IMG/VR virus record: IMGVR_UViG_3300025070_000323 | Location: 1-20,052 of that record | DNA length: 20,052 bases | DNA from: a virus | Reading direction: 5' to 3' (one strand) | Part shown: one piece after another, positions 6,213 through 15,358 of the stretch | Numbering within the stretch: position 1 is the first letter of the stretch | Layout: each line of letters opens with the position of its first letter | Notes under the pieces: generated by a model | Databases searched by the model: none | Told to the model about the DNA's origin: nothing | The model's input: only the letters and a program-made list of their open reading frames with translations | Program-made: the position numbers and the translations under genes

Positions 6213-6226
6213 CGTAGAACCTTTGG

Positions 6227-6252
6227 ATAAGGTGCGTTTTAATGCACTTTAT
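6227..6252 (+). repeat. CGTTTTAATG-loop hairpin 1
   Basis: ATAAGGTGC pairs with GCACTTTAT over nine base pairs (one G-U), with loop GTTTTAAT at 6236-6243. The same loop recurs six more times in the window. It is followed by ACG and the left arm of the inverted repeat around the next gene. Confidence 0.85.
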
Positions 6253-6256
6253 ACGT

Positions 6257-6565
6257 TGTTGGGTTTAGTACGGGTTATTAACAGACAAAATTAAATAAAA
6301 TGGAGACAAAAAAAACATACAAATACAAAGTAAAAGAAACAGGTAATGAATTTGAAGCAGTTTTAGTTAAAGGTAAAGATAGATGTTATTTGTATTTAGA
6401 CAAAAATCAAAAAAAACCTATTGCTTCTTGGGATTTAGAAATGTACGATGATTTTAATTTTTACTACATATTAGAGCCTTTTACAAATCCAGACAAAATT
6501 ACAGAGCCAACAAAAGAGGATATACTTGATTATTTGAAAATTACAGTTTAGCATTAAACCCAACA
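6257..6565. repeat. inverted repeat flanking the 6300 gene (cassette A)
   Basis: Left arm TGTTGGGTTTA (6257-6267) is the exact complement of right arm TAAACCCAACA (6555-6565). The left arm lies in the leader and the right arm begins four bases after the stop codon. The arms enclose a single gene. Confidence 0.75.
6300..6551 (+). CDS. cassette A gene: small unknown soluble protein
   Basis: 83 residues. It is lysine-rich with alternating aromatic beta-like stretches (KKTYKYKVKETGNEFEAVLVKG, RCYLYLDKN, YDDFNFYYILEPF) and an acidic end (EPTKEDILDYLKI). No cysteine motif or membrane segment is present, and no family is recognised. The gene stands alone: it has its own promoter at 6183-6212, an ACGG-TTATTAAC leader resembling that of other cassette genes, flanking inverted repeats, and two hairpins after the stop. 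It looks like an exchangeable accessory gene placed between the replication and packaging modules. Confidence 0.65.
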   Translation: METKKTYKYKVKETGNEFEAVLVKGKDRCYLYLDKNQKKPIASWDLEMYDDFNFYYILEPFTNPDKITEPTKEDILDYLKITV

Positions 6566-6570
6566 CTAAG

Positions 6571-6597
6571 ATAAAAACACGTTTTAATGTGTTTTAT
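6571..6597 (+). repeat. CGTTTTAATG-loop hairpin 2
   Basis: AAAACAC (6574-6580) pairs with GTGTTTT (6589-6595), loop GTTTTAAT at 6581-6588; outer bases AT/AT may extend it past a bulge. It is preceded by ACACTAAGATA, also found before the hairpin at 14915. Confidence 0.8.
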
Positions 6598-6601
6598 TAA
6601 C

Positions 6602-6636
6602 TGTTGCATCACGTTTTAATGTGGGGTTTAGTTTTT
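6602..6636 (+). terminator. CGTTTTAATG-loop hairpin 3 and possible terminator
   Basis: CTGTTGC, then CAC-GTTTTAAT-GTG (loop 6613-6620) with a weak stem, then GGGGTTTAG and six T. GGGTTTA (6624-6630) can also pair with TAAACCC (6555-6561), which would fold the whole trailer. The equivalent element at 14951 is a strong terminator. Confidence 0.5.
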
Positions 6637-10184: not shown

Positions 10185-11021
10185 TTGAGGTTAGACAAAG
10201 ATAAATGGCAAAAGGCTTTTGAAAAGGAATTAGACAAGGCCGAAAAAAGGCAATCCTCTAAAGTAAGGCGATACTATAAAAACCAATACTATAAAGGAAC
10301 AGAATCTTTTTTGTCTAGTGGCCAAACATCTTTTCAACTTTTATTTAGTACAAGCGAATTACTTAAAATTTATCGTGATTTATATTCTGATATTGGTTTA
10401 CAATTTGCTAAATGGTATGCAAGAAATTTTGATAAATACATAAAAAAGGGAGTTAATCCGAATCAATACGTTGATGAATGGCAAAATTCTTTTGCGTCTT
10501 ATGGCTCTGCCGTAGGTGCTGAAAGGGTTACTTTAGTAAGTGGAACGGCAAAGGCAACACTTGTAAAAGTTACGCAAAATTTAATGACTGATTTAGACTT
10601 TCAAAATTTAGGTATTGCCGAAAAGACTAGGATTTTAAGAAGCCAATTCAATAAGTATTCGGCGTTTCAAGCGGAGCGATTAGTTAGAACAGAGGCGACA
10701 AGTGCTGCAAACTTTGCAACTTTAAAATCTGCAAACACAATATTTCCGGCGGAAGATTTACAAAAAGAATGGATTTCTGCGACAGACGAAAGAACAAGGC
10801 CAACACATAGGGCCGTAAATGGTGTTGTTGTAAATCAAACTGATTTTTTTACTGTTGGCGATAGCTTAATGATGTACCCTGGCGATCCTAGAGGATCGGC
10901 TAAAGAAGTAATTAATTGTCGTTGTTCAATCGCCTATTTTCCTAAAGAAACCGCACAAGCGACCGGAGAAATTACTGACATTGGTTTTGGCGTTTCATTT
11001 GGTACAAATCAAAAAATTTAA
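10185..11021 (+). CDS. MuF-like head morphogenesis protein
   Basis: 278 residues from TTG 10185, directly after the portal stop; no ATG is close. The N terminus is a basic helix (KWQKAFEKELDKAEKRQ). The C-terminal MuF domain shows ERLVRTEATSAANFATL, EWISATDERTRPTHRAVNG (D-x-RT-x-x-x-H) and PGDPRGSAKEVINCRC. Family members sit between portal and capsid and act as minor head or scaffolding-associated proteins, sometimes carrying injected effector domains. Here nothing beyond the MuF domain is visible at the C terminus (IAYFPKETAQATG and a short tail). Confidence 0.9.
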   Translation: MRLDKDKWQKAFEKELDKAEKRQSSKVRRYYKNQYYKGTESFLSSGQTSFQLLFSTSELLKIYRDLYSDIGLQFAKWYARNFDKYIKKGVNPNQYVDEWQNSFASYGSAVGAERVTLVSGTAKATLVKVTQNLMTDLDFQNLGIAEKTRILRSQFNKYSAFQAERLVRTEATSAANFATLKSANTIFPAEDLQKEWISATDERTRPTHRAVNGVVVNQTDFFTVGDSLMMYPGDPRGSAKEVINCRCSIAYFPKETAQATGEITDIGFGVSFGTNQKI

Positions 11022-13675: not shown

Positions 13676-13803
13676 TTGATCACGAATTAAACGAGCATTT
13701 AGATTCTTTAGAGGAAAAGAGCGAATGTATGGAGTGCGGAGTCGATGTCCAACTTGGAAAACATTATTGTTGTTTTAGTTGTTTGAACGCATCTAATAGG
13801 TAA
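13666..13803 (+). CDS. 45-residue zinc-ribbon protein
   Basis: The frame starts at ATG 13666 inside the end of the DUF3310 gene and ends at TAA 13801-13803. It encodes an acidic N terminus (DHELNEHLDSLEEKSE) and two cysteine pairs, CMEC and CCFSC, 14 residues apart with GVDVQLGKHY between, the spacing of a small zinc ribbon. Such mini zinc ribbons are common in phages and may bind nucleic acid or RNA polymerase. Overlap and intact metal ligands argue that it is real; the function is unknown. Confidence 0.7.
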   Translation: MCIVDHELNEHLDSLEEKSECMECGVDVQLGKHYCCFSCLNASNR

Positions 13804-13812
13804 CGTGAAAGT

Positions 13813-14080
13813 GTATGATTAGTAGCGTGTTAAATAACTAAAGATAATAGAAATGACAGAACAAGAAAGAAACTTAATTAGAGATGCAATGATGTTTGCA
13901 GTAAAAGATATAACTGGTAGAGTAATGCGTGAAGCTACTGTACAAAGTATGATAGATGACTTTAAAAAAGCTATTAATTATACACATTGTTGTGAGGAGT
14001 TGTGTGATAAATGCAACAAAGAAAATCATCTACAAAAATTAACAGACCAAGCACAAGATTTAGGTTTAGGGTATGATTAG
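13813..14080 (+). repeat. direct repeat GTATGATTAG flanking the 13853 gene
   Basis: Exact copies at 13813-13822 and 14071-14080. In the second copy the sequence encodes the last residues and stop (YD-stop) of the 13853 gene. In the first copy, GTGTATGATTAG could likewise be the tail of a lost or displaced gene. It suggests duplication or insertion of the gene between them. Confidence 0.5.
13853..14080 (+). CDS. small cysteine-containing unknown protein
   Basis: 75 residues. The N-terminal part is helical (EQERNLIRDAMMFAVKDITGRVMREATVQSMIDDFKKAI). A His/Cys cluster follows: H-CC-EEL-C-DK-C (THCCEELCDKCNKENH), possibly a metal site. The C terminus is LTDQAQDLGLGYD. No family is recognised. The leader (ACG-T boundary, then TTAAATAACTAAAG) resembles those of the later cassette genes, but no convincing flanking inverted repeat was found. 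Confidence 0.6.
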   Translation: MTEQERNLIRDAMMFAVKDITGRVMREATVQSMIDDFKKAINYTHCCEELCDKCNKENHLQKLTDQAQDLGLGYD

Positions 14081-14138
14081 CACAATTACTTACAACGAAC
14101 ACGTATATAAATTGAAAATAAAACGGATTAATAACTAA
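14073..14138 (+). CDS. possible 21-residue peptide
   Basis: ATG 14073 overlaps the end of the preceding gene (in TATGATTAG) and the frame ends at TAA 14136-14138 just before the next start. Product MISTITYNEHVYKLKIKRIN then N. The matching position upstream (ATG 13815) gives an eight-residue frame beginning MISS and also ending in NN-stop. It may be a leader peptide or a degenerate remnant; the leader motif TTAATAACTAAAA is its 3' end. Confidence 0.25.
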   Translation: MISTITYNEHVYKLKIKRINN

Positions 14139-14366
14139 AAAAAATAAACAAGATGCCAACATTAGTAAGAAAGTACGATTTACACGAATTAGCACACAAA
14201 GAAAGTAAAAACGAAATACTGTTAGATGCTAAATTAAATACAGAATTGCACATAATAGCAAAAAGTGATAGAACTATTATTAGACTGCCTTTTGGCAACA
14301 AGTTTGATTTAGTAGATGGAATGATAATTATACACGAAAAGTAGTTTTATTTTTTGTTTATATACG
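14102..14366. repeat. inverted repeat flanking the 14153 gene (cassette B)
   Basis: Left arm 14102-14124 (CGTATATAAA...AAAATAAAAC) and right arm 14344-14366 (GTTTTATTTT...TTTATATACG) are complementary at 20 of 23 positions. The right arm starts on the last base of the stop codon. The enclosed DNA holds one gene only. Confidence 0.75.
14153..14344 (+). CDS. cassette B gene: small unknown soluble protein
   Basis: 63 residues: a basic start (MPTLVRKYDLHELAHKESKNEILL), then beta-like stretches (AKLNTELHIIAKSDRTIIRLPFGN, FDLVDGMIIIHEK). No recognisable family. The leader reads ACGG-A-TTAATAACTAAAA before the ATG, nearly the same as the leader of the 14680 gene. The gene is bracketed by inverted repeats and followed by a CGTTTTAATG-loop hairpin, so it appears to be one unit of a modular array. 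Confidence 0.6.
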   Translation: MPTLVRKYDLHELAHKESKNEILLDAKLNTELHIIAKSDRTIIRLPFGNKFDLVDGMIIIHEK

Positions 14367-14368
14367 AT

Positions 14369-14397
14369 GTTAGCAAATCGTTTTAATGTCTGCTAAC
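14369..14397 (+). repeat. CGTTTTAATG-loop hairpin 4
   Basis: GTTAGC (14369-14374) pairs with GCTAAC (14392-14397), with an interrupted inner stem and loop GTTTTAAT at 14380-14387. It lies three bases past the right arm of cassette B and is followed by G and the start of cassette C. Confidence 0.85.
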
Positions 14398-14402
14398 GTA
14401 AT

Positions 14403-14599
14403 AGAATATGAATTTTAAAAATTATACGATGATAAAAAAAATGAACAAAGGCTTATTGTTTGCCTTGCTTGTATTGATAATGACGCTATTAATATGGATA
14501 GAACCAAAGGCAACACCATTGATAATTATACCTATTTGTTTTACTTGGATATATGCAAACGAAAAGCACTTTTAGTATAATTTTTATTATTTATATTCT
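14403..14599. repeat. inverted repeat flanking the 14429 gene (cassette C)
   Basis: Left arm 14403-14426 (AGAATATGAA...AAAATTATA) and right arm 14576-14599 (TATAATTTTT...TTATATTCT) are complementary at 21 of 24 positions. The right arm begins right after the stop codon. A+T richness raises the chance level, but the position matches the other three cassettes. Confidence 0.65.
14429..14575 (+). CDS. cassette C gene: tiny membrane protein
   Basis: 48 residues from ATG 14429. Alternatives are ATG 14408 (inside the left inverted-repeat arm) or ATG 14441, which has the best A-rich tract in front. Two hydrophobic spans follow a basic N terminus: GLLFALLVLIMTLLIWI and PLIIIPICFTWIYA, joined by EPKAT. 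It is most likely a small inner-membrane protein. It is not related to the other cassette proteins, which supports the idea that the units share flanks rather than genes. Confidence 0.55.
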   Translation: MIKKMNKGLLFALLVLIMTLLIWIEPKATPLIIIPICFTWIYANEKHF

Positions 14600-14601
14600 G
14601 T

Positions 14602-14630
14602 GTTATGTGCTTTTTTAATTGCACCATAAC
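14602..14630 (+). repeat. hairpin with related TTTTTTAATT loop
   Basis: GTTATG-TGC (14602-14610) pairs with GCA-CATAAC (14621-14630, one bulged C), with loop TTTTTTAATT. It is the variant form of the CGTTTTAATG hairpins, located between cassettes C and D exactly where hairpin 4 sits between B and C, and is likewise followed by G. Confidence 0.8.
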
Positions 14631-14635
14631 GTAGT

Positions 14636-14878
14636 TGTATAACAGTAGTAACGGAAATTAATAACTAAAATTATAAAAAATGAACGAATTTAAAGACGTT
14701 AATAAAAAAATAATAAAAGCTGGAGATGTAATATACAACTCTTTTAATAACCCTAATTATGAAAAAATAATTGAAATAAATAAACTACTTTGCTTTGAAG
14801 ATGGGTCTATTTTAGATGATAGGTATCAAACAGAAAAATTTTGGAAAATAAGCAATAGGTAGTTATTACTGTTATACA
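14636..14878. repeat. inverted repeat flanking the 14680 gene (cassette D)
   Basis: Left arm TGTATAACAGTAGTAAC (14636-14652) and right arm GTTATTACTGTTATACA (14862-14878) are complementary at 16 of 17 positions. The right arm begins with the final G of the stop codon. This is the clearest of the four because the sequence is of mixed composition. Confidence 0.85.
14680..14862 (+). CDS. cassette D gene: small unknown soluble protein
   Basis: 60 residues: MNEFKDVNKKIIKAGDVIYNSFNNPNYEKIIEINKLLCFEDGSILDDRYQTEKFWKISNR. It looks like a small beta barrel (KKIIKAGDVIYN; YEKIIEINKLLCFEDGSIL) without a known family. The leader ACGG-AA-TTAATAACTAAAA closely matches cassette B. It is enclosed by a strong inverted repeat and followed by three successive CGTTTTAATG hairpins, the last of which is a terminator. 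Confidence 0.6.
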   Translation: MNEFKDVNKKIIKAGDVIYNSFNNPNYEKIIEINKLLCFEDGSILDDRYQTEKFWKISNR

Positions 14879-14880
14879 TT

Positions 14881-14909
14881 GTTGTGAAATCGTTTTAATG
14901 TTTTACAAC
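14881..14909 (+). repeat. CGTTTTAATG-loop hairpin 5
   Basis: GTTGTGAAA..C pairs with G.TTTACAAC (one bulge, one G-U) around loop GTTTTAAT at 14892-14899, directly behind the right arm of cassette D. It is followed by ACTAAGATA, the block also found at 6566-6573. Confidence 0.85.
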
Positions 14910-14914
14910 ACTAA

Positions 14915-14942
14915 GATATGAAGCGTTTTAATGCTTTATATC
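14915..14942 (+). repeat. CGTTTTAATG-loop hairpin 6
   Basis: GATATGAAGC pairs with GCTTTATATC over ten base pairs (one G-U), with loop GTTTTAAT at 14925-14932. It occupies the same place after ACTAAGATA as hairpin 2 and is followed by GACTGTTGC. Confidence 0.88.
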
Positions 14943-14950
14943 GACTGTTG

Positions 14951-14978
14951 CCCAACGTTTTAATGTTGGGTTTTTTTT
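14951..14978 (+). terminator. CGTTTTAATG-loop hairpin 7, intrinsic terminator
   Basis: CCCAAC pairs perfectly with GTTGGG around loop GTTTTAAT (14957-14964), followed by eight T. It ends transcription of the cassette run and lies just upstream of the nuclease promoter. Confidence 0.88.
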
Positions 14979-14993
14979 ATTTTGCTATCTTTA
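14966..14993 (+). promoter_or_regulatory. promoter of the 14999 nuclease gene
   Basis: TTG (14966-14968), a 17-base spacer and TATCTTTA (14986-14993) resemble a Bacteroidetes promoter. The ATG at 14999 is five bases past the element, giving a nearly leaderless mRNA. The promoter overlaps the upstream terminator. Confidence 0.6.
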
Positions 14994-14998
14994 CAGAT

Positions 14999-15358
14999 AT
15001 GGATAGCAGTCAAATTGGATGTTTAGCTGAATATAAGTTTGCAACTACCGCAATGGAACAAGGCTTTTATGTTTCTTTTCCTTTATTACATACTTCAAGA
15101 TATGATTGCATTATTGAAACGCCTAAAGGGTTGTTTAAAGTACAAATAAAGTCAGTTAATAATCACAAAAATAGAACAAGAGTTTTTTTAAGAGATACAA
15201 AGAAAAAATCATACAGTAAAAAAGACGTAGATTTTTTTGCTATTTATTACAGAGATAAGGACGGATTCTTTATTTTAAAAAATGACGGCAAACGAAAATC
15301 ATTTGAATTAACATCGCCTAAATATTTAAAATTTTTTAATAACTTTGCAGAACTTTAA
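14999..15358 (+). CDS. PD-(D/E)xK endonuclease-like protein
   Basis: 119 residues from ATG 14999. The longer frame from 14918 is rejected because its start lies in a hairpin upstream of both a terminator and the promoter. Motifs: GCLAEYKFATTAMEQGFYV (E11), RYDCIIE (D36) and VQIK (Q49-x-K51), the pattern of the PDDEXK_5 group, which includes archaeal resolvase-like and intron-endonuclease-like proteins. The rest is a lysine-rich beta region (VFLRDTKKK; DFFAIYYRDKDGFFIL). The gene has its own promoter and terminator and lies between late structural genes, which is typical of a 'moron'. Function may be DNA repair, resolvase or anti-competitor cleavage. Confidence 0.75.
   Translation: MDSSQIGCLAEYKFATTAMEQGFYVSFPLLHTSRYDCIIETPKGLFKVQIKSVNNHKNRTRVFLRDTKKKSYSKKDVDFFAIYYRDKDGFFILKNDGKRKSFELTSPKYLKFFNNFAEL

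Follow-up and report, generated by a model that had tools for sequence, protein, structure and literature searches.

The 17-bp inverted repeat that encloses a gene of 60 codons (gene D) in this virus DNA is most probably stem L of a folded single-strand recombination site that moves together with the gene. The site belongs, on this interpretation, to an integron-like system of reversed polarity, represented here by phage arrays that have no recombinase of their own. The window, i.e. the whole stretch of DNA that was analysed, comprises 20,052 nucleotides of the IMG/VR virus record IMGVR_UViG_3300025070_000323. It carries phage terminase, portal and capsid-type genes, which were named by reading, the terminase with further support. 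No near DNA match to the window was found in INPHARED, and no recombinase was noted in the window.

The original prediction had placed a 17-bp inverted repeat at positions 14636-14878, and this repeat is real. Its arms are separated by 209 nt and are complementary at 16/17 positions (94%). The sole non-Watson-Crick position is G14648.T14866, and all 17/17 positions are paired if G.T is counted. The 3′ arm begins on the last base of the stop codon, as had been claimed. Chance pairing had been called unlikely, and by our own estimate the probability of 16/17 pairing within ~2 kb at the local base composition is on the order of 0.01. Stronger evidence comes from the recurrence of the arrangement in cassettes A, B and C and at 6224-6564, and from covariation. 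The coordinates are right for stem L but cut the element short: it extends from a 5′ spacer starting at 14631 to a second hairpin that ends with AAC at 14909, and the second hairpin and the AAC-G junction are both needed. Cassette D consists of the following features:

14631-14635, + strand: spacer GTAGT, following the AAC of the preceding unit (14628-14630); the junction is AAC/G
14636-14652, + strand: stem L, 5′ arm TGTATAACAGTAGTAAC, assigned by arm pairing
14680-14862, + strand: gene D, 60 aa, TAG stop, without known family
14862-14878, + strand: stem L, 3′ arm GTTATTACTGTTATACA, whose first base is the last base of the stop codon
14881-14909, + strand: hairpin II (stem R), GTTGTGAAAT-loop CGTTTTAATG-TTTTACAAC, empty

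When the arms of cassette D are joined as they would be in a circle, folding gives one long hairpin with a 17-bp outer stem and a 9-bp inner stem. The same layout is found in cassettes A, B and C and in a second array at 6224-6564, and all small genes of this part of the window sit in such two-hairpin units:

13811-13985, + strand: cassette A hairpin I, arms 13811-13826/13970-13985, the 3′ arm being coding (AINYTHCC)
13853-14080, + strand: cassette A gene, 75 aa, straddling hairpins I and II
13989-14096, + strand: cassette A hairpin II, containing the 3′ half of the gene
14102-14124, + strand: cassette B stem L, 5′ arm
14153-14344, + strand: cassette B gene, 63 aa
14344-14366, + strand: cassette B stem L, 3′ arm
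14369-14397, + strand: cassette B hairpin II, loop CGTTTTAATG
14401-14427, + strand: cassette C stem L, 5′ arm
14408-14575, + strand: cassette C gene, 55 aa
14575-14601, + strand: cassette C stem L, 3′ arm
14602-14630, + strand: cassette C hairpin II
14910-14973, + strand: array tail ACTAAGATATGAAG-CGTTTTAATG-CTTTATATC-GACTGTTG-CCCAACGTTTTAATGTTGGG, a motif seen at the 3′ ends of arrays in 43 viral loci
6224-6255, + strand: second array, hairpin I, empty, loop with CGTTTTAATG
6258-6564, + strand: second array, hairpin II around gene 6300-6551 (83 aa)
6565-6627, + strand: tail of the second array, same family as 14910-14973

Each unit thus reads AAC-G-spacer-[hairpin I, stem L, AT-rich]-[hairpin II, stem R, GTT...AAC]. 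Open reading frames are contained in one of the two hairpins, or begin in hairpin I and run to the 3′ arm of hairpin II. At locus L034 a chain parser found ten units in a row. A stricter detector identified 197 units in IMG/VR contigs and isolated phages; this detector was tuned on the signature itself, and on reversed sequence it gave ~25. The isolated phages with units are Polaribacter phages P12002L and P12002S, Tenacibaculum phage JQ, Flavobacterium phage filifjonk9-1 and Cellulophaga phage phi13:2, and their cargo includes DNA methyltransferases and HNH nucleases. In P12002L, a signature scan located seven hairpin-I sites, all on one strand. Searches with two tail patterns returned 15 and then 43 viral loci, in partly overlapping sets. 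The tail loop CGTTTTAATG is invariant and the flanking stems vary in step. In host genomes the tail motif was found as one solitary copy, in Hyunsoonleella, and nowhere else in 299 genomes of the family. The tail therefore looks phage-specific, which does not apply to hairpin I. The Hyunsoonleella copy is a lone phage-type tail (AACACTAAGATA-hairpin-CTGTTAGGC) between ordinary genes of H. aquatilis contig2 (L017; G001:C12:149401-149438). Beside the first array of the window, the ORF of a PD-(D/E)XK nuclease (PF11645) covers 14918-15358; since its first ATG lies within the array-tail hairpin, translation probably begins at the ATG at 15000.

To describe the stems, we used phage loci as well as chromosomal arrays of Flavobacteriaceae. 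In 30 chromosomal sites, 98.1% of the stem L cells are paired and double changes occur in 12 of the 16 pairs. Covariation of stem L is 0.490, compared with 0.116 after shuffling (0/500 shuffles reach the observed value) and at most 0.132 in slid alignments. At positions 4-10 of stem R, 6.69 of 7 pairs are Watson-Crick with the arm's own partner, compared with 2.64 for shuffled partners and 3.24 for the next cassette. Stem L therefore shows, across homologous sites, the compensatory changes by which the original prediction had proposed to judge the repeat. Loss of arm complementarity with the gene retained was not seen among homologues; gene D itself has no detectable homologue among viral contigs. 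A covariance model, R1, was built from chromosomal hairpins I only. It has hits in 76 of the 247 genomes sampled from the phylum and in the phage arrays, and in the window it matches 13802-14002 (E=6.5e-6) and 6218-6271 (E=2.8e-4). Cassette D is absent from its hits, and belongs to the group by layout, not by score.

Wobble pairs occupy constant positions. The chromosomal stems carry fixed G.T pairs at L position 7 (38/44), L position 12 (41/44) and R position 11 (50/51), and most of the remaining stem positions covary. With G.T and A.C penalised equally, phage hairpins I contain 139 G.T/T.G and 4 A.C/C.A pairs and phage hairpins II contain 34 and 5, respectively. The wobble pattern of hairpin I is [T.G] 6 bp [G.T] 4 bp [G.T] 4 bp. 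The stem of the gene strand is more stable than that of its complement in 44/44 L stems and 51/51 R stems, because a G.T on the gene strand becomes an A.C on the complement. Strong covariation, G.T pairs at fixed positions and the near absence of A.C argue that the gene strand is the folded strand. All 51 R stems have GTT/AAC ends; the next four positions are mixed, and the RRRY of the R boxes GTTRRRY / RYYYAAC is only partly matched. None of the 44 chromosomal L stems has a fixed bulge or extrahelical base; fixed G.T pairs are present. Taken together, the site has R and L stems, an unpaired central spacer and a variable terminal structure, as attC sites do. Chromosomal hairpins I are mostly sites of ~108 nt that precede hairpins II of 300-1300 bp, and their ~76-nt loop often contains an inner palindrome GAAAATCC...GGATTTTC (L086, L088, L089 and others). 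In 12 array loci, no Rfam family reached its gathering threshold. Three hits below threshold in the window, one of them to c-di-GMP-I at 10543, were judged to be chance, and a hammerhead-like string spotted by eye in hairpin I of L004 was dropped for want of Rfam support.

Exchange of whole units was assessed by comparing related phages. The differences between P12002L and P12002S consist of whole units, and their shared segments are 99-100% identical and end at unit junctions. In P12002S a single additional methyltransferase unit of ~0.9 kb is cleanly placed between GCAGGTAACG and TTTGGTTATATGG. A further insertion between the two phages comprises about three units, and its right border lies in the spacer, not exactly at AACG. 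Of the 47 distinct breakpoints that lie outside tails in phage loci, 24 coincide with AAC, where 6.7 would be expected. Between near-identical phages the breakpoints lie at AAC or AACG with a resolution of 3-5 nt, in agreement with a crossover at AA/C with G as the next base. Breakpoints of another kind fall on the border between hairpins I and II. The protein of window cassette A and that of L065, for example, are identical in their first 47 residues (MTEQERN...AINYTHCC) and different afterwards. In several genes the middle is encoded by the hairpin (AINYTHCC, KQLTLTDVS) and the N- and C-terminal halves vary independently (window 13853-14080, L065 2253-2489, and L004 with L063).

A candidate enzyme is found beside the chromosomal arrays. 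In 199 Flavobacteriaceae genomes, no protein scored above the cut-off of the integron-integrase profile, and many tyrosine recombinases scored below it. In 20 regions around the best of these sub-threshold recombinases, 67 units were detected, mostly in arrays, whereas 20 regions taken at random from these genomes yielded 3 scattered hits, none in series. One of the random regions (L109) holds a strong solitary site according to the covariance model. In a strict test, 20 of 40 chromosomal loci have a convergent recombinase gene whose stop codon is 26-103 bp away from the final AAC of the array; as the loci were chosen by IntI similarity, this is not a census. Units were on the strand opposite to the recombinase in 122 cases and on the same strand in 3. 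The recombinases match NF040815 and TIGR02249. The TIGR02249 score is 203-211 bits (cut-off 265) and falls into two stretches, the first ending at profile position 177-179 and the C-terminal pieces starting from ~239. The middle region of the profile is not matched, and the IntI-specific insert is missing. As both the profile score and the insert fail the definition of IntI, the system is to be regarded as an integron-like variant and not as a classical integron. The catalytic residues R-K-H-R-H-Y are invariant across the array-adjacent recombinases, and the nearest solved structures are XerA (5hxy, Z 24.4) and IntI4 (2a3v, Z 20.9). A conserved N-terminal extension of ~100 residues (ITLKHLLI...IFKTFRGVAWIN) without convincing Pfam family was observed in L083, L084, L094, L097, L099 and others. 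Several recombinase genes are located at contig ends (L082, L087, L092, L096, L130, L138), as if repetitive arrays break assemblies. At recombinase-proximal array ends (e.g. L084, L126, L140), the last AAC is followed by AATTG-GATA...palindrome...TATC, recalling the phage tail hairpin. Judged by sequence resemblance, the phage array tail and the recombinase-side AAC with palindrome could possibly correspond to an attI-like end site.

Our data suggest the following mechanism. A unit would have the form AAC/G-spacer-[stem L]-[stem R: GTT...AAC]/G, with the open reading frame in the loop of L, in the loop of R, or across both. After excision of the unit as a circle, the L and R arms would form one long gene-strand hairpin composed of a stem, an unpaired spacer and a stem. 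The tyrosine recombinase encoded beside like arrays in Flavobacteriaceae chromosomes would recombine this hairpin at AA/CG. In cassette D the gene would take the place of the variable terminal loop on stem L. The circular intermediate, folding of the single strand in vivo and catalysis by the array-adjacent recombinase are thus predicted steps, and recombination in these arrays is itself something that we infer from sequence comparison. The chromosomal recombinase looks like the engine of an unrecognised kind of integron, whose arrays are common to phages and Flavobacteriaceae chromosomes. A tyrosine recombinase was sought in five complete phage records that carry arrays and in the 37-kb contig of L034, and only phi13:2 has one. 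As four of the five complete records lack one, mobility in phages is assumed to need a trans-acting enzyme, and phages may use the host recombinase on their arrays. The phi13:2 protein (gp038; L074 8662-9948), encoded directly downstream of the phage array, is weakly XerD-like. It is of a different type from the array-adjacent recombinase and was dropped as an array-type enzyme.

The original prediction had offered two readings of the repeat, as the stem of a folded recombination site in DNA or as an RNA element that ties the ends of the mRNA. The DNA reading is borne out by the compensatory arm changes, the unit-wise insertions with AAC/G breakpoints and the recombinase adjoining host arrays. 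If the arms instead paired in the transcript and tied the leader to the 3′ end, they would control translation, stability or RNase III-type processing, and recombination would be incidental. The retention of G.T(U) on the gene strand with A.C nearly absent, the extension of the arms to the stop codon and the presence of open reading frames within hairpins are all consistent with such a role. However, it predicts neither the AAC/G breakpoints nor the linkage to a recombinase in fixed orientation, nor the ~108-nt chromosomal hairpins I upstream of 300-1300 bp hairpins II, and there is no Rfam match. We therefore regard an RNA element as an unlikely explanation of the repeat, although pairing in the mRNA is a possible side effect.

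Very unlikely, in our view, is a classical integron array without integrase (CALIN) worked by IntI, as was reported for P12002L. In its favour, P12002L, which carries the array described here, has been classed as a CALIN, and IntI1 recombined its attC2 in E. coli (PMC9892861); the layout of R stem, spacer, L stem and terminal structure and the AA/CG cut also fit attC. On the other hand, IntI was above the cut-off in 0/199 Flavobacteriaceae genomes and its insert is missing from the adjacent recombinases, while the genes lie on the better-folding strand, convergent with the recombinase, and fixed G.T pairs stand in place of extrahelical bases. Passive mosaicism, in which phages exchange small genes by homologous recombination in conserved linker hairpins, could draw on short homologies from the conserved tail and stem consensus and on the breakpoints at the hairpin I/II border, but is extremely improbable because most breakpoints share no more than the 4-5 identical bases of AACG, complementarity exists within a cassette and not between neighbours, and the chromosomal arrays are linked to a recombinase.

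Integrons are the best-known bacterial gene-capture platform. The IntegronFinder 2.0 survey found almost no integrons in Bacteroidetes, with one complete integron in Salinibacter (PMC9024848), and a set of taxon-specific attC models contains none for Bacteroidetes. In open-access papers on CGTTTTAATG and on Bacteroidetes or Flavobacteriaceae integrons, we found no description of the system. On balance we lean towards a separate class of integron that is widespread in Flavobacteriaceae and missed by integron finders, with an insert-less Xer-type recombinase, strand choice set by G.T pairs, reversed polarity and in-gene phage sites that shuffle protein halves. If this is true, Flavobacteriaceae have their own version of the integron in common with their phages, and the phages carry DNA methyltransferase and HNH cassettes. 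Replacing extrahelical bases by G.T pairs would then be an independent solution to the problem of recombinases reading structure over sequence, and the phage arrays would represent natural domain shuffling at an in-frame recombination site.

Like the attC arrays of integrons (IntI; CALIN, sedentary chromosomal), the arrays described here consist of tandem gene cassettes with a palindromic two-stem site and an unpaired spacer. The cassette's own start and end are complementary, the cut is at AA/C followed by G, and a tyrosine recombinase lies beside the array. The cleaved bottom strand of canonical attC likewise reads AA/C then G (PMC2727003). In the present arrays it is the gene strand that has AAC-G at the junction and folds better, and the genes thus seem to be on the recombinogenic strand, a mirror of the classical layout. 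This agrees with a recombinase that is convergent and not divergent. Qi et al. (2023) predicted two attC sites in the P12002L CALIN, in divergent directions, one of which was active with IntI1 (PMC9892861). In the same phage we find seven same-strand hairpin-I sites, of which attC2 may be one. That this hairpin-I type is common to Flavobacteriaceae chromosomes with their recombinase is not part of the picture given by Qi et al. The best profile and structure match of the array-adjacent recombinase is with Xer/dif and archaeal XerA (NF040815). Unlike Xer/XerA, it has the ~100-residue N-terminal extension, for which most members show no convincing Pfam family, and is linked to hairpin cassette arrays. 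In contrast to integrons, the recombinase has no IntI insert and its gene converges with the array, the cassette genes lie on the better-folding strand with the site upstream of the gene, the stems of 14 and 16 bp carry fixed G.T pairs that replace extrahelical bases, and phage open reading frames are contained in the site or span it. In its general layout the system resembles known integrons, from which it departs in its recombinase, site anatomy, polarity and in-gene sites.
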